Assembly (NCBI GenBank): GCA_021774625.1
Contig: JAJFIV010000027.1
Span: 336,566-400,565 of the forward strand
Direction: 5' to 3'
Source: Alphaproteobacteria bacterium
Lineage (GTDB): Bacteria > Pseudomonadota > Alphaproteobacteria > Sphingomonadales > JAKSBY01
DNA: 64,000 nucleotides
The translations under genes and the position numbers were made by a program. The notes below the pieces were generated by a model, which saw only the letters and a program-made list of their open reading frames with translations, ran no database searches and was not told the origin of the DNA. Shown in pieces: positions 3,942 through 20,726 of this stretch; within the stretch, counting starts at the first letter, position 1; each line of letters begins with the position of its first letter.

Positions 3942-4025
3942 CCTTTCCTCAACGCTTGGGGCGGGCCTGTCGAAGGACGGCGCCGGTCGAACGGACATTG
4001 AAATGGGGGCGGCGAAAACAGCCAA

Positions 4026-4712
4026 TCAGATCATAATGGTGCCGAGGCCGCGGTCACGTTGCGGCCGTTCATTCTCTTTGCCTTCTTCGGGCATGGTCAC
4101 CGACATCACCCGCGTGTAAGATTCGCGGTCGCCGCTTTTGGTGTGACTTTTCAACGACATTCCCAGTTTGTCGGAATACCAGACCCGCTTCTGGTAACGG
4201 ACATGCTTGCCCGCCACTTCCAAATCCGTCGTGATATCAATAACGAAAACATCAAAAAGTTTTTTTTGTATGTAAATCTCGGCTTCGCCCGCCACTTCCA
4301 GGGTCACCCAATAGGTTTGCTCTTCGCCCCGCCCGTCCCGGTACGATTCCTCGAAAGAAACCTCTTTGCTGACGGACAGCGGGAAAAGGCTCTCCACATG
4401 CTTCACATCAAATTCAAAAGAATAATCGACGCCGTCCTCATAGCCTGTGAAAGGATAAAAACCGCGGTAAAGCTTATGTTTACCGACTATTTTATCGCCC
4501 CAGCGGGAGACAAATGTGGAAATCATCCCTTCAACCTGCGTGACCTCAAGATCGAACAGATAACCGTCCGCCTTGACTGTCGCCTGAAGCCCCTCGGGAA
4601 CCGCCCCCGAAAAGCCGGTTTCACTCGCAGGCCTGCAGCCGGCCAGCGCAACGGCAAGGCTGACAACAAACAGATAGGGAGTGGCTGATTTTACCCTCAC
4701 ACTGTTCCTCAC
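4026..4712 (-). CDS. Putative lipoprotein of unknown function
   Basis: 228-residue protein with an N-terminal hydrophobic segment ending in a lipobox (VALAGC, Cys about residue 26), so it is predicted to be lipidated and anchored in the envelope. The remainder is beta-rich with alternating aromatic and charged residues and resembles a beta-sheet lipid-binding or DUF3108-like fold, but I do not recognise a family with confidence. The start is GTG at 4712; a second GTG at 4700 would leave a more typical signal peptide. It lies 79 bp downstream of the SixA-like gene. The gap contains an AT-rich hairpin (TTATGC-AAAG-GCATAA, 4728-4743), so separate transcription is possible. Confidence 0.7.
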   Translation of the reverse strand: MRNSVRVKSATPYLFVVSLAVALAGCRPASETGFSGAVPEGLQATVKADGYLFDLEVTQVEGMISTFVSRWGDKIVGKHKLYRGFYPFTGYEDGVDYSFEFDVKHVESLFPLSVSKEVSFEESYRDGRGEEQTYWVTLEVAGEAEIYIQKKLFDVFVIDITTDLEVAGKHVRYQKRVWYSDKLGMSLKSHTKSGDRESYTRVMSVTMPEEGKENERPQRDRGLGTIMI

Positions 4713-13952: not shown

Positions 13953-14201
13953 ATGAATGCCCGGACCGTCGTCAAACTGATTTTTCTCAGCCTTATGGTT
14001 GGCCTGGTCATGAGTTTTTTTGGCTATGGCCCCGGCGATGTCTGGGAAAGTGTGATAGGCCTTGGCAAGCGGAGTTTTGACGCCGCCATTTCCTTCTTTG
14101 ACTGGGCGCTTCTCTATATCATGATCGGCGCCGCTGTGGTGGTCCCGGTATTCATCCTCAGTCGCCTTTTGAGAAAGCGGCCCAAATCAGGTGAAAACTG
14201 A
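13953..14201 (+). CDS. Small inner-membrane protein, DUF6460-like
   Basis: 82-residue protein with two membrane segments (about residues 8-27 and 50-70) separated by GYGPGDVWESVIGLGKRSFD and ending in a basic tail (LRKRPKSGEN). Length and layout match the small alphaproteobacterial family DUF6460, whose function is unknown. The ATG at 13953 (MNARTVVKLIF) was chosen because the frame upstream to 13893 encodes a polar stretch out of keeping with the family. The end abuts the DUF938 methyltransferase, separated from its ATG by one base. Confidence 0.68.
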   Translation: MNARTVVKLIFLSLMVGLVMSFFGYGPGDVWESVIGLGKRSFDAAISFFDWALLYIMIGAAVVVPVFILSRLLRKRPKSGEN

Positions 14202-14202
14202 C

Positions 14203-14844
14203 ATGACGGAACCGGACAGTTTACCGCAGGATGGGCGTCAGTTCGCCCCGGCCACAGCGCGGAACCGCGATCCTATTCTGGCAATTCTTAAGCGGGTGCT
14301 GCCGCCTGAAGGGACGGTGCTGGAGATTGCCAGCGGCACCGGCGAACATGCGGTTTATTTTGCCCAAAATCTTGAACCCCGCTACTGGCTGCCGAGCGAT
14401 CCGGCGCCCGATCAGCGGGTTTCCGTGAATGCCTGGGCGGCGAAAGAGCCGTGTGATCGTCTGCAGCCGCCGCTGAATATCGATGTGACGCAGAAAAGCT
14501 GGCCGGTTGAACGCATCCTGCCCTCACCTCCCATCACCGCTATTGTCGCCATCAACATGATCCATATTGCGCCCTGGCAGGCCTGTCTTGGTCTGATGGC
14601 CGGCGCAGGACGTATTTTACGGCCAGGCCATGTGCTTTACCTATACGGGCCCTTTATGCGCGGCGGTGTGCACACCGCCCCCTCTAACGCCTCCTTTGAT
14701 GAAATGCTGCAGTCGCAGGACCCGCGCTGGGGCGTGCGGGATATGGAGGATGTGGTTGATGCAGCCCGGGCCCAGGGGTTGGACCTGACGGAAATTATCG
14801 AAATGCCGGTGAACAATCTGTCACTTGCTTTCAAACGCCTATAG
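14203..14844 (+). CDS. DUF938 SAM-dependent methyltransferase-like protein
   Basis: 213-residue Rossmann-fold protein of the DUF938 family (related to human METTL26). Motif I is VLEIASGTGEHAVYFA, preceded by the family hallmark FAPATARNRDPIL. Later blocks IVAINMIHIAPWQA, LYLYGPFMRGG and FDEMLQSQDPRWGVRDME are also typical. The substrate is unknown. The ATG at 14203 has AGGTGA 8 nt upstream; a GTG at 14191 would overlap the DUF6460-like gene. The last 6 bp overlap the convergent oxygenase gene. Confidence 0.86.
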   Translation: MTEPDSLPQDGRQFAPATARNRDPILAILKRVLPPEGTVLEIASGTGEHAVYFAQNLEPRYWLPSDPAPDQRVSVNAWAAKEPCDRLQPPLNIDVTQKSWPVERILPSPPITAIVAINMIHIAPWQACLGLMAGAGRILRPGHVLYLYGPFMRGGVHTAPSNASFDEMLQSQDPRWGVRDMEDVVDAARAQGLDLTEIIEMPVNNLSLAFKRL

Positions 14845-16674
14845 ATCCGCGCCTGAAGGACGTTCGCGGGGAATCACATCGAAAGCAACGGTCATACGCG
14901 GTTTTGTTGAACGGATCGGCACAGTGCCGTGGTACATATAAGAAGGAAACAAGACCAGCCGGCCCACCTCTGGCCTGACCATCTTGCCAATCTCCTCCCG
15001 CTCCCCCAGTTCCAGATTGCTTTCGCCGAATTTGATCCAGCCTTCCTTTTCAGACTCATCCAGATCATCCGGCAGTTCCACATAATAGGCCGAGCTGATC
15101 CAACCCGACGAGTGGGTGTGGTTGAAATGATACCCGTTTGCCCCCAGCCGCACCGACCAGGACCCGGCAATGGCGAAATCCCCGCTTCTGCGCCCAAGGA
15201 ACGGATGGCCCGGATCGTCGGGAAGCTCACGAATATACTGATCGACCGCTTCCTTTATGAGCGCCAGGAGCTGCTGGATCAGAATATTGGGAGACTCGAA
15301 TAAAAGACCGTGGGTCTGGGTGCCAAAACGCAGGGTCTGATCAAAGGGGTGAGTTTCCGTCTTGTGCAGGCTGTGGAGATATTCCGCCAGCGCCCGGTTA
15401 AAGGCCGCCATGTCAGTAAAGCCCACCGGACAGCGCAGGTCGAAGATGCGGACAAAGCGGTCATAGTCATAAAGGCTTTTCGCCTGCGGCTTATTCAGCA
15501 GCCTGAGACAGAGCCACTCATAGGCAATGGTTTCCTGGTCAGAGGGCGCCATCTGGCGCGCCTTTGCAATGAGATCATACGCCTTATCGCACTTTTCGCG
15601 GATAATGAGGACCCGTCCGTAATCCTGGTAGGCGGCAACCCGCTCCGGATCTTTGTCGATGCTTCTTTCAAACCAGGAAAAGGCCTCATCCCAGTTTTCC
15701 TGCCACGCTTCCAGGCGGGCTAACGCATGGGCAATCCCCGCCGAAACCCCTATTCGTTCCCTGGCCTTGAGGAGAATAGCGGACGCCTCTTCCCGTCGTC
15801 CTATATGCAGCAGCTTATTGGCGCAGGCGATATAAAGGCCTTCCGCCCCAGGCGCCCGCTCTATGGCGTCCCGGTAGCTCTGCAAAAACAGATCATGCCG
15901 TTTATGTTCCCAATAGAGATTATTGAGAATTTCATGGGCCGCCAGAAAATCAGGTTTCAGGTGAACGGCCTGCCGATAAGCGTGAAGCGCCTCCTCGATA
16001 TGCCCGAGATCATAAAGCGCATGGCCGAAATCATAGTAAAGTTCCGCCGACACGGGGTTTAATTTCAACGCCGCCATATAACGTTCGGCGGCCTGCTCCG
16101 GCAGCCCCACATAGCGCAGAACCCGGCCAAGATGGTGTTGCGCGGCAAAATAATCGGGTTTCAGTTTCACCGCCTGAACAAGCGCCTCGCAGGCGTTTTC
16201 AAAATCCTGCACTGCCTCCAGGGCGCGGCCCCGCAGACAGTGGCCCCTTGCGTCCTCCCGATCAAGGCTGACCAGTGTCCCGGCTTTCTCCTGCGCTTCT
16301 TCCGGGCGGTCTGTCTCAAGCAGCAACAGAGCAAGACCGGCAAGGGCATCGGTATGGTCGGGGACCATATTCAATGTGACGCGATACGCCGTTTCGGCGG
16401 CTGTCACATCCCCGGCTTCGCTATAAAGATTGCCGAGATTGTTCCAGACATGCGGTTGATCATGTTTGACCTTCAGTGACTGGCGAAGGTAGTTTTCCGC
16501 GCTTTCCCGCTCGCCTTTCTTCTTCAGAATAAGCCCCATAAGCTGCAAGGCATCGGGATGGTCCGGATGATCGGCAAGAATACTCCGGCAACGGCTTTCC
16601 GCGGCTGCAGCATCGCCGTTATTTGCCGCAGCAATAACAGCCTGCAAATTCTCTGCAAGATATTCCAAATTCAT
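14839..16674 (-). CDS. TPR repeat protein fused to a 2-oxoglutarate/Fe(II) oxygenase-like domain
   Basis: 611-residue cytosolic protein (no signal peptide). About residues 5-400 are tandem tetratricopeptide repeats, with consensus units such as ALVQAVKLKPDYFAAQHHLG and EALHAYRQAVHLKPDFLAAH. The C-terminal ~200 residues are a jelly-roll 2OG-Fe(II) oxygenase domain of the PF13759 type: the metal motif is in YHFNHTHSSGWISSAYYVEL, the distal His in FPSYMYHGT, and the 2OG-binding Arg in KPRMTVAFD. Such fusions may hydroxylate a protein partner held by the repeats; the substrate is unknown. The start ATG has AGGAAGA immediately upstream. It lies directly beyond the tRNA-Thr fragment that bounds the M28 gene. 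Confidence 0.85.
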   Translation of the reverse strand: MNLEYLAENLQAVIAAANNGDAAAAESRCRSILADHPDHPDALQLMGLILKKKGERESAENYLRQSLKVKHDQPHVWNNLGNLYSEAGDVTAAETAYRVTLNMVPDHTDALAGLALLLLETDRPEEAQEKAGTLVSLDREDARGHCLRGRALEAVQDFENACEALVQAVKLKPDYFAAQHHLGRVLRYVGLPEQAAERYMAALKLNPVSAELYYDFGHALYDLGHIEEALHAYRQAVHLKPDFLAAHEILNNLYWEHKRHDLFLQSYRDAIERAPGAEGLYIACANKLLHIGRREEASAILLKARERIGVSAGIAHALARLEAWQENWDEAFSWFERSIDKDPERVAAYQDYGRVLIIREKCDKAYDLIAKARQMAPSDQETIAYEWLCLRLLNKPQAKSLYDYDRFVRIFDLRCPVGFTDMAAFNRALAEYLHSLHKTETHPFDQTLRFGTQTHGLLFESPNILIQQLLALIKEAVDQYIRELPDDPGHPFLGRRSGDFAIAGSWSVRLGANGYHFNHTHSSGWISSAYYVELPDDLDESEKEGWIKFGESNLELGEREEIGKMVRPEVGRLVLFPSYMYHGTVPIRSTKPRMTVAFDVIPRERPSGADL

Positions 16675-16756
16675 TCTTCTTCCTGCCTGTCGATATTCTT
16701 CCGTTGTTCGCCGGATTTGGCAAAGGAATTTTTAGAAAAGCGGGAGAATATATAGC

Positions 16757-16791
16757 GCCGCCTGCACAACTCGAACACGCGGTCCGGGCAT
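16757..16791 (-). pseudogene. Decayed fragment of tRNA-Thr (T arm plus 3' acceptor strand)
   Basis: A 35-nt stretch matches the 3' part of the complete tRNA-Thr gene (19203-19237) at 28 of 35 positions in the same orientation. The acceptor-strand complement gccgcct and T-loop block actcgaacacgcg are identical. Five of the seven differences are transitions, and a T-stem could still form with three G-U pairs. No D arm or anticodon arm is present, and the trinucleotide at the CCA position reads CTA, so it is not a functional tRNA. It lies 34 bp beyond the M28 peptidase stop. Confidence 0.7.
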
Positions 16792-16824
16792 GACAGGGAA
16801 CAATCCATAGAGACCGGTCTGATA

Positions 16825-19089
16825 TTAATCAGAAAGATCTTCCGCCAAAGTGGTCATTTGATCCATATGAGTGGCAATATCTGTCAGAATATTCGCCAGT
16901 ATATCAATCTGCTGGTTTGCTTCTTGCCAGTTGCGCTGTTCGATCGCCTCACGCACGCCCGGCAGGGTTTTGACGCCATAACCGGTATAAAATCCCGGCG
17001 CGTAGATATGGTGCACAAACCAGGGCCGGCGCGGCAGCCCCTCGGCCCGGATCATTTTTCTCTCCATCCTGTAAAGAAGCCGGTTCAGTTCGGCCTGCTG
17101 TCTTTTTGAGATATTCGCACCGCCCTCCGCGAGATTCTTCGCGGCTTCATCAAATGCCGCTGAACTTACCCGTAATTTTGCCAGGGCGTTTTCAAGCGCG
17201 GCAAAAGCAAGATGGGGGACCGGATCTTTCTCGATCCGCGGAACATACGCCTCGGAAGGATCGGCAACGGCCGCATAAATGCCGTCCCTTACCCGTTCAT
17301 TATGCTCCGCCGTTTCCTTGCGCATATTGTCCGCCAGGCCGGTCACCTGATCCAGATAGACCGCAACCGTCCGGGTAAAGGCTTCCGTGTCGAATGGCAG
17401 GATATCCGCATTGGCCAGCCGCAAGGTGGCGCGGCCTGCAACCTTGGCCAGCGCGGCCCCATACAGAAATCCGGGATCACCGAAACGGACATAATGGTCA
17501 TAACTATCATAGGCCGAATGATACTGACTGCCGCCCCCTTCGCCGCCAAACCCGATATTGAGCGACGCGATGCCCAGATGCTGCAAAAATCCGGAATAGT
17601 CCGAGCCGGACCCCAGAGCCGACAACGGATAGGCAATGCCGGCATCAAGGGCCTTTTTCTGTTCCTCACTGCCGATAAGACGTAACAGCTTGCGTCTGCG
17701 TTCGCCGACCGTGATTCCCTTATGCGGGTCCATCACGGCGTTAGCGATCTGGCCGAAAAAAGGTTCCAGCGTGTGGGATCCGCCGGCATTCAGAAACCCG
17801 CGCGACGTGCCGTCCGTGTTGATATAGGCAACAAGTTTGGCATCGAGTTCCCGGGCATGCTGCTCCACCCACTCAACAGAGCCGATCAGTCCGGGCTCTT
17901 CCGCGTCCCACCCGGCATAAAGGATGGTGCGGGCCGGACGATTGCCGGCTCTGGCAAGCTCGCCCACGATGCGGGCTTCCTCCATCAGGGCCACCATGCC
18001 GGAGACCGGATCGGCCGCCCCCGATACCCAGGCATCATGATGATTGCCGCGCATCACCCATTCGTCCGGATAGGTCTCCCCTTCCAGTTTGGCAATCACG
18101 TTATATGCCGGCGTTAATGTCCAGTCGAAGGCAAGTTTCAGGCGCACCCGCGCAGGGCCCGGCCCCACATGATAGGTGATGGGCAATGCGCCGCGCCAGC
18201 TGTCCGGCGCCACGGCCCCATCCAGTGCTTTCAAAAAGGGCAGGGCATCGTTATAGGAAATCGGCAGCACCGGAATCTTCAACAGACTTTCCGAGTCTTC
18301 GCGGCTGATCCGTTTGGCATTTTCGGTCGCGCCAACGCCCGGGGTGACCGGATCGCCGGGGCGCAGCGGAAGATCAATCACGGAGCCTCGCTGCACACTG
18401 TCCTGATTGCGATGACCGCCCTTCGGATAGGCGTCGCCCTGCGCATAACCGTCATCGGCAGGATCGGAATAGAGAATGACGCCCAGTGCGCCATGTTCCT
18501 GCGCCAGTTTCGGTTTGATGCCGCGCCAGGACCCGCCATAGCGGGCGATGACAATCTTGCCTTTAACATCAAGCCCGAGGCGTTCCAGTTCCTCATAATC
18601 CGCCGGAATGCCCTGGTTGACGTAAATCAGTTCCCCCGTGACATCGCCATCGGCGGAATAGGCATTGTACGGCGGCAGAGACCGGTCCGCCTGCTCCGAT
18701 GTCCGGTCTCCCTCAATGGCCGGCTCTACGAGCGCGGCGGTATAGGGTTCGGGCGAGAGCAATTGCAAAACGCGTTCCTTCGGCGTCGGGAACAGGATAT
18801 GAAAGGTCTCGATTTCCGCTTCATATCCCCAGGACCGAAAAGCTTCGGCCATGGCCTCGGCCGCTGTCTTTGTGCCGGGTGCGCCCAGGTGATGCGGCTC
18901 CGCCGTCAGGCGCTGCATCCACATATCGAGATTATCCGGATTAACCCGGCGGTCAAACTCCGCCTCAAGCGCCAGTTGATCCGCGCCCTCCTGTTCTGAA
19001 AAACCCAGCGGCGCCGGGCTGTCCCCCGCCGCTAGCGCGACCCCGCCGCACATAACGGCAATCGTAATAATTCCGGTGATTTTCTTCAT
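16825..19089 (-). CDS. Exported M28-family metallopeptidase (glutamate carboxypeptidase II-like)
   Basis: 754-residue protein with a signal peptide (cleavage near residue 20, after ALA) and the three-domain plan of the PSMA/NAALADase group: a split peptidase domain, an inserted PA domain (about 120-290, GVILYSDPADDGYAQGDAYP), and a C-terminal transferrin-receptor-like dimerisation domain (about 590-750). Co-catalytic zinc ligands are visible in NHHDAWVSGAADPVSG (His, Asp), WDAEEPGLIGS (catalytic Glu and ligand Glu), INTDGTS (Asp) and YHSAYDSYDHY (His). It should trim acidic or other peptides in the periplasm or outside. GGAGG precedes the ATG. It is the only gene between tRNA-Thr and the tRNA fragment. 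Confidence 0.92.
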   Translation of the reverse strand: MKKITGIITIAVMCGGVALAAGDSPAPLGFSEQEGADQLALEAEFDRRVNPDNLDMWMQRLTAEPHHLGAPGTKTAAEAMAEAFRSWGYEAEIETFHILFPTPKERVLQLLSPEPYTAALVEPAIEGDRTSEQADRSLPPYNAYSADGDVTGELIYVNQGIPADYEELERLGLDVKGKIVIARYGGSWRGIKPKLAQEHGALGVILYSDPADDGYAQGDAYPKGGHRNQDSVQRGSVIDLPLRPGDPVTPGVGATENAKRISREDSESLLKIPVLPISYNDALPFLKALDGAVAPDSWRGALPITYHVGPGPARVRLKLAFDWTLTPAYNVIAKLEGETYPDEWVMRGNHHDAWVSGAADPVSGMVALMEEARIVGELARAGNRPARTILYAGWDAEEPGLIGSVEWVEQHARELDAKLVAYINTDGTSRGFLNAGGSHTLEPFFGQIANAVMDPHKGITVGERRRKLLRLIGSEEQKKALDAGIAYPLSALGSGSDYSGFLQHLGIASLNIGFGGEGGGSQYHSAYDSYDHYVRFGDPGFLYGAALAKVAGRATLRLANADILPFDTEAFTRTVAVYLDQVTGLADNMRKETAEHNERVRDGIYAAVADPSEAYVPRIEKDPVPHLAFAALENALAKLRVSSAAFDEAAKNLAEGGANISKRQQAELNRLLYRMERKMIRAEGLPRRPWFVHHIYAPGFYTGYGVKTLPGVREAIEQRNWQEANQQIDILANILTDIATHMDQMTTLAEDLSD

Positions 19090-19198
19090 TTACACTGCCT
19101 CCAACAGCCTTATGCACAATTATCCTTATTGTTAACACCAATTGCCTCAAAAGAGGGAGCGTAAAATAGGCAAGCATGATCGGGATGGTGGAAGGGGC

Positions 19199-19274
19199 TG
19201 GTGCCGCCTGCGTGACTCGAACACGCGACCCCCGCATTACGAATGCGATGCTCTACCAGCTGAGCTAAGGCGGC
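19199..19274 (-). tRNA. tRNA-Thr (anticodon CGT)
   Basis: 76-nt gene transcribed leftward, with acceptor GCCGCCT pairing with AGGCGGC, discriminator A and encoded CCA at 19199-19201. The anticodon loop is TTCGTAA, giving CGT, which reads ACG threonine codons. The T arm is GCGTG-TTCGAGT-CACGC. The 3' end is the side facing the M28 peptidase gene, and a decayed copy of that 3' end is at 16757-16791. Confidence 0.96.
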
Positions 19275-19331: not shown

Positions 19332-20726
19332 TCAGGTTTTGCCGCCCGCGTCATTCCTTACAGCCAGTGGGCCGGGCAGCAGAACAAGCGGGTCAGACGG
19401 CTTCAGAGCGGCAGTTTCCCGCTTCATGGCCACCGTATAAGGTGCTCCCCACTCAATGCGGTTAAAGTTTTGACAGGTTGGACAGATGGCCCGCCAGCCG
19501 TCATGCGGCGTGCCGCAATTTCCACATCGCCAGCCGGGCGGCGGCGGCGCTGTCTTTTCCGCCGTTCCCCAAGTCTCGGCCCTGGTCTCAGCTTCTTCGC
19601 CGCCCGCTGCCCGCTCCAGCCGGACGAGCAGGGCGTAAACCCGTTTATCCGGATGTCCCGCGGCCAATCTATCGAGGGCGTCGCGTGCCTCTTCATAATG
19701 CTCCGCTCTCAAAGCGGCCTCGGACAGGGTGATCAGGCTTTCCTCATGACCGGGGGCGCTTTCGATCAGCGCCTTGATCCGGCGAAGCTGCTCGGTCGGG
19801 GTTTCCATGGCGTCCAAAGCGGAATACGCGGCCGCCAGATCGGGATGCGGGCTTTTCTGCCAGGCTGTTTTGATAATTTTGGACGCTTTTCGCCGGTCGC
19901 CCCCGGCTTTTTGGAATTTCGCCGCCAGTAAGACCGCCGGGACAAAATCCGGCTGTTCTTTCAGCGCCTTCGCCACCAGTGAGGACGCCTCATCGCCCGC
20001 CCCGGATAGATCCGCCTCTAGGGCCTGCGAAAAATAAAGCGCCGCCCGGTCGCGGCTTGCCTGTTTTTTATCAAAGTTTCCGCTTTTTTCCAGTTTTGCC
20101 AGCCTTGTCAGGGCACCGGACCAGTCCTTATGCCGGATTTTGAGGCGGTAAAGACTTTCCAGCACCCACCGGCTGTCCGGCGCCAGCGTTTCCGCTTTTT
20201 CCGCCAATGCCAAAGCCTCCCGGAAGTCGCCCTGACTTTCCGCCTGATGAAAAAGACCCTTCACACCCAGCAGCGCGGCGTCGGGATCGGCCATCAGAGC
20301 GCGAAAATGGCCTTCGGCTGATGCTTTATCCCCGGCCTCGGTCGCCACCTGTGCGGCGATCACATGGGTAAAAGCCTGCGGCGGTAAAAGCCGGAGCGCC
20401 TGGCTGGTCAGTTTTTGCGCCTTCGCCTTGTCGCCTGCGGCCAGCGCCACGACCGCTTTGTTGAGAAAGGAGAAACCCTGGCGCTGGCGGCGCAGTTCCC
20501 TTTGCGGGCCCCAAAAGGGAACGCCGCGGACCAGCCAGTTCCACAGCATGTGCAAGATATAGCCGGCCACGCCCAACAGCCCGGTCAGGACGGCCAAAGC
20601 GAAGAACGAAGTATCGATCCGGTAATCGAGCCAGCGGATGGTGACCGCGCCCGCATGATCGGCAAACCAGGCGATGCCGAGGGCCGCGGCAAGCAGCAGT
20701 CCGAAAATGACAAAAAGCCGGATCAT
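19332..20726 (-). CDS. hemY: HemY-family TPR membrane protein
   Basis: 464-residue inner-membrane protein. Two N-terminal membrane segments (about 3-20 and 40-62, around WLDYRIDTSFF) match the HemY N-terminal domain. A periplasmic or cytosolic TPR region follows (QKLTSQALRLLPPQAF, LAEKAETLAPDSRWVLESLY). Near the C-terminus a four-cysteine zinc-ribbon/rubredoxin-like motif, CGNCGTPHDGW then CPTC, is present. HemY of this type is encoded with haem genes, but its function is not settled and it is not the protoporphyrinogen oxidase called HemY in Bacillus. The start overlaps the alpha-Mic60 stop by 4 bp. Confidence 0.9.
   Translation of the reverse strand: MIRLFVIFGLLLAAALGIAWFADHAGAVTIRWLDYRIDTSFFALAVLTGLLGVAGYILHMLWNWLVRGVPFWGPQRELRRQRQGFSFLNKAVVALAAGDKAKAQKLTSQALRLLPPQAFTHVIAAQVATEAGDKASAEGHFRALMADPDAALLGVKGLFHQAESQGDFREALALAEKAETLAPDSRWVLESLYRLKIRHKDWSGALTRLAKLEKSGNFDKKQASRDRAALYFSQALEADLSGAGDEASSLVAKALKEQPDFVPAVLLAAKFQKAGGDRRKASKIIKTAWQKSPHPDLAAAYSALDAMETPTEQLRRIKALIESAPGHEESLITLSEAALRAEHYEEARDALDRLAAGHPDKRVYALLVRLERAAGGEEAETRAETWGTAEKTAPPPPGWRCGNCGTPHDGWRAICPTCQNFNRIEWGAPYTVAMKRETAALKPSDPLVLLPGPLAVRNDAGGKT

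Follow-up and report, generated by a model that had tools for sequence, protein, structure and literature searches.

An M28 peptidase gene between tRNA-Thr(CGU) and a worn copy of the tRNA 3' end: a probable old insertion in an alphaproteobacterial genome

Integration at the 3' end of tRNA genes follows a described pattern, in which the core copy carried by the incoming element rebuilds the tRNA and the old end is moved to the far side of the inserted DNA (PMC9897764). Cassettes targeted to tRNA genes have also been described as part of additive flexible genomic islands in Alteromonas (PMC4119200), 'Ca. Actinomarinales' (PMC7771536), and 'Ca. Methylopumilus' (PMC10872708). Integration at a tRNA 3' end predicts a complete tRNA, cargo, and a same-orientation 3' fragment, which is exactly what is seen around a gene for an M28 peptidase in the window, the whole stretch of 64,000 nucleotides from an alphaproteobacterial contig that was analysed here. 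The locus runs in the order DUF938, TPR/2OG gene, scar, M28, tRNA-Thr, and hemY, with the following features:

14191 to 14844, plus strand: DUF938 gene, a conserved flank, directly adjacent to tRNA-Thr in genomes G015 and G003
14839 to 16674, minus strand: TPR and 2OG-Fe(II) oxygenase gene (Pfam), absent between DUF938 and the tRNA in G015 and G003
16753 to 16791, minus strand: direct repeat, now decayed, of the last part of tRNA-Thr (anticodon stem, 3' side, to CCA positions); putative attR-like scar
16825 to 19089, minus strand: intact ORF for a predicted M28B metallopeptidase (Pfam, PDB search, tree), the cargo between tRNA and scar
19199 to 19237, minus strand: 3'-terminal 39 nt of tRNA-Thr, the stretch that is repeated (30/39 ungapped match)
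19199 to 19274, minus strand: complete tRNA-Thr(CGU) with encoded CCA (ARAGORN), adjoining hemY in many relatives; putative integration target and reconstituted attL-like end
19332 to 20726, minus strand: HemY-like gene, the conserved flank at the 5' side of the tRNA

An earlier, sequence-only reading of this DNA had noted the complete tRNA-Thr, which ARAGORN placed at the same position and strand, and a same-orientation repeat at 16757-16791 with 28 of 35 positions identical. The count is exact, and this core lies inside a longer repeat that extends to the CCA (16753-16791), in which 30 of 39 positions are identical to the tRNA-Thr 3' end (77%; seven transitions and two transversions). The longer repeat spans the tRNA from the 3' strand of the anticodon stem to the CCA, the usual extent of an att core at a tRNA 3' end, and similarity continues on neither side. 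The worn copy is closest to its own tRNA-Thr (28/35, whereas none of the other tRNA loci compared exceeded 23), and a search for further copies of the scar in the source genome found none. By coordinates, 33 bp (16792-16824) separate the scar from the M28 stop, rather than the 34 bp first reported, and the tRNA lies ~110 bp upstream of the M28 ORF. The conserved pairing of the T arm in the fragment was set aside as a mark of function, since G-U pairs are the automatic outcome of transitions on that strand.

A likeness of this kind might be put down to chance, as the TTCGA core is common to T arms. Against this, 400 Markov-1 simulations with the same dinucleotide make-up and the same length (19.15 kb) produced best matches of 20-25/39, and the binomial expectation for 30 or more matches in 39 is ~1.5e-6 in a 19.15-kb stretch and ~5e-4 in the whole genome. 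When the same scan was applied to the 3' flanks (0.3 to 46 kb) of 43 tRNA genes of the source genome as an empirical control, nearly all gave 17-23/39, the exceptions being Leu-UAA (25), Arg-CCG (26), tRNA-Thr(CGU) itself (30), and tRNA-Val(GAC) (39). Apart from tRNA-Thr(CGU), only the tRNA-Val thus exceeded the range of 17-26 that held for all other tRNAs in the genome, and on these simulated and genomic controls chance similarity is refuted, its probability being negligible; the worry that such a match would be common at random, raised by the sequence-only reading against its own proposal, falls away.

The tRNA-Val(GAC) with its perfect 39-nt repeat served as a positive control and bounds a bona fide island of 14.8 kb (G000:C32:171697-186620, in the source genome), in which the gene adjacent to the tRNA is integrase-like (PHROG integrase, E 2e-22; no Pfam match) and the cargo, from translations inspected by eye, includes a type I restriction-modification-like gene set. 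Integrases matching PF00589 lie near two more tRNA genes of the source genome, ~130 bp from the 3' end of a tRNA-Ser (contig C33) and ~830 bp from that of a tRNA-Phe (contig C24). Elsewhere in this genome, a fragment at G000:C2:41601-41667, near a contig end, matches without a difference, for at least 20 nt, the 3' half of tRNA-Thr(GGU), the gene for which is on another contig (C24:20283), and is probably a second tRNA-Thr attachment scar.

Relatives from two other families of the same taxonomic order (G015 and G003) possess the empty site, with DUF938, a single tRNA-Thr, and hemY in succession and with both the M28 and the TPR/2OG genes missing. In G015, where the tRNA starts ~28 bp past the DUF938 match, the order is helicase-like, lysS, TPR, DUF938, tRNA-Thr, hemY, mitofilin-like, hemD, hemC, tsaD, and gpsA, which is the gene order of the window minus the M28 and TPR/2OG genes. 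An empty tRNA-Thr site had been anticipated by the sequence-only reading, which expected it to be joined to the TPR/2OG gene; the empty site exists, but it abuts DUF938, so that the TPR/2OG gene would itself be an insertion, probably a second and earlier one relative to the empty site. The convergent ORF ends of DUF938 and TPR/2OG overlap at 14839-14844, which marks the junction of that insertion, and no tRNA scar is visible at this junction. Since the empty site lacks both genes, two insertions distinguish the window from it, a TPR/2OG insertion without a scar and an M28 insertion bounded by one, and the repeat accounts for the M28 insertion alone. The alternative, that G015 and G003 lost these genes and the lineage of the window did not gain them, would also be possible, at the cost of more events.

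A scan for 3' repeats at 62 tRNA-Thr(CGU) loci of the order revealed other insertions at the same tRNA. In the sole same-family relative compared (G001), a 31/39 repeat of the genome's own tRNA-Thr, in which 24 consecutive nt covering the T arm are identical, occurs at +3.2 kb, an att-like pair of the sort that the sequence-only reading had proposed looking for in other genomes. The cargo here is different, consisting of a family-92 glycosyltransferase and a polysaccharide flippase with no integrase, and past the repeat is a carbon-nitrogen hydrolase with its stop codon inside the repeat; a scar on the DUF938 side was looked for in this genome and none was found. The larger island and the integrase at this tRNA that had also been named as possible support were both recovered, the former in G182, where a perfect 39-nt repeat at +14.3 kb (identity continuing for ~50 nt) closes a 14.3-kb island containing a resolvase, an integrase-like gene, a DNA methylase, and Vsr, the latter in G184 as a PF00589 integrase 47 bp from tRNA-Thr. 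A 26/39 match in G184 is nearer to a tRNA-Arg end than to tRNA-Thr and was not counted as a tRNA-Thr scar. The repeat in G162 (29/39, at +15.4 kb) resembles the 3' half of another tRNA-Thr allele, while in G036 a chimeric-looking tRNA-Thr(CGU) (C68, L202, 1931-2006), the acceptor stem of which no longer pairs fully and the 3' part of which seems to come from another allele, is followed by a sulfatase gene and then by an exact 39-nt tRNA 5' half (4013-4051). Given the insertions or integrases in these genomes (G001, G182, G184, G162, and G036), tRNA-Thr(CGU) is a recurrent integration site in the order.

A short ORF in G001 (G001:C534, L214, 9954-10367) ends in the tRNA-Thr 3' end, as though the insertion had truncated it; its start, judged by eye, resembles a secreted endonuclease/phosphatase and has no Pfam match. 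In G021 and G041 (L205 and L206), ~2 kb of genes stand between hemY and tRNA-Thr, on the opposite side from the usual insertions, and those in G021 look by eye like ECF-sigma-like, anti-sigma-like, and EF-hand-like genes.

The same comparisons bear on an origin without any mobile element, in which the scar is a decayed tandem duplicate of tRNA-Thr and the M28 gene arrived or moved between the copies by ordinary recombination. Fragments of tRNA genes can arise without integration, and G036 has more than one tRNA-Thr(CGU) (a second complete gene is on contig C40) in addition to its 5' half copy. The match in the window, however, consists of the 3' 39 nt only, with nothing 5' of the anticodon stem, the empty sites have one tRNA-Thr, and integrases occur at tRNA-Thr in the order, all of which make a duplication improbable as the source of the scar.

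The M28 gene is the only ORF in the 2.4 kb between tRNA and scar, as the sequence-only reading had it, and no integrase or excision gene is present there; on this contig, PF00589 is matched no closer than ~86 kb away. Pfam identified PA, M28, and TFR-dimerisation (transferrin-receptor dimerisation) domains, and in a PDB search most of the protein, including the zinc-ligand motifs, aligned with human glutamate carboxypeptidase II (GCPII). With the same three domains as the glutamate carboxypeptidase II/transferrin-receptor family (M28B) and zinc-ligand motifs that align with those of human GCPII, the product is predicted to be a GCPII-like peptidase M28B, though unlike the human enzyme it is a bacterial protein with an apparent signal peptide.

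In a tree of 90 rows, the M28 protein sits on a long branch among seven proteins from the same order (SH-aLRT 99), which gives no support to recent import from another phylum. With its closest relatives united in a single clade from that order, the gene need not come from afar and has probably circulated within or near the order, to judge by the tree. The relatives are patchy across the order, no tRNA lies beside them in the stretches examined, and M28 was not found downstream of the other tRNA-Thr loci among the 62 scanned, so that the case in which all relatives carry M28 at this site, named beforehand as adverse to insertion, does not apply. The patchiness and the absence of M28 from the vicinity of tRNA-Thr elsewhere in the genomes examined were counted in favour of insertion, as were the tRNA-Val island of the source genome and its integrases near tRNA-Ser and tRNA-Phe. 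Foreign GC or codon use, suggested as a further check, gave no signal, and the composition is typical (GC 0.589; GC3 0.651; a codon distance that is among the smallest for the 43 ORFs of the window). Foreign composition is common in the cargo of tRNA islands and no strict requirement, and typical composition is expected for old insertions; the insertion would therefore be old, or the DNA would have come from a similar genome. Counted against insertion were the missing integrase or excision gene, the typical composition, the same-order clade, the occurrence of the empty site in other families only, and the TPR/2OG insertion, for which the repeat does not account.

The lack of an integrase inside leaves two readings of the locus, a remnant that decayed around one gene and an integrase-less cassette inserted in trans. 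There is a substantial chance, if somewhat short of even, that a small piece of one or a few genes without an integrase was added as is by an integrase acting in trans, and the same rating attaches to its corollary that the locus was never a complete autonomous element. A single gene with both ends present, the integrase-less 3.2-kb insertion that carries different genes at tRNA-Thr in G001, and the published tRNA-targeted cassettes with partial tRNA end repeats (PMC7771536, PMC4119200, PMC10872708) all favour such a cassette; however, internal deletion of a larger element would lead to the same picture, and no very close genome pair shows a gain of this sort at tRNA-Thr. A broader proposal, that some integrase has repeatedly inserted cargo-only cassettes of one to three genes in trans into tRNA-Thr(CGU) across the order, with the M28 gene and the G001 glycosyltransferase and flippase as two such cassettes, is speculative and rather unlikely. 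Of the relic integrative element envisaged by the sequence-only reading, the insertion at the tRNA is borne out by the empty site and the other islands, while descent from a larger element goes beyond the observations, which a small cargo-only cassette fits equally well.

With good confidence, the best explanation of the locus is that DNA was inserted long ago at the 3' end of tRNA-Thr(CGU) and is now inactive. Ancestrally, the genes would have run lysS, TPR gene, DUF938, tRNA-Thr, and hemY, and in the lineage of the window the TPR/2OG-oxygenase gene would have come to sit between DUF938 and the tRNA. A segment carrying M28 would next have been inserted at the tRNA 3' end, most likely through recombination by a tyrosine integrase, possibly acting in trans, with the tRNA rebuilt by the incoming end and the old 3' end displaced 2.4 kb downstream. 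The arrival of M28 with that segment and the sequence of the two steps are presumed in this scheme. The displaced end, without selection, would then have decayed mainly by transitions, and the intact peptidase gene would be all that remains of the inserted segment.

If this is correct, the locus documents the survival of a single gene beyond the insertion by which it reached a tRNA, and a worn 3' repeat can reveal tRNA islets of great age and very small size where composition gives no hint. The tRNA-Thr(CGU) beside hemY is a recurrent insertion site across one alphaproteobacterial order. The principle is already known, and the insertion, while real, is ordinary. Compared with the archaeal tRNA-associated islands (~9-23 kb; PMC9897764), the locus is smaller (2.4 kb, one gene), lacks an integrase, and has a repeat that is only 77% identical, but it shares with them one complete and one partial tRNA copy, a 3'-end repeat, bounding acquired DNA. 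Set against additive flexible islands, there is one scar only at the M28 locus and the comparison here is across families and not strains; a conserved tRNA target, small cassettes, a partial tRNA repeat at the end, and differing cargo in relatives are common to both, and the differing cargo of G001, from the same family, is suggestive of the presence/absence pattern of such islands. An integrase inside and a foreign cargo composition, found in tRNA-targeted islands, are lacking; a complete tRNA with a same-orientation repeat, an empty site, and a tRNA used by complete islands elsewhere are all present, and the locus belongs to a known kind, the tRNA-anchored genomic islet.
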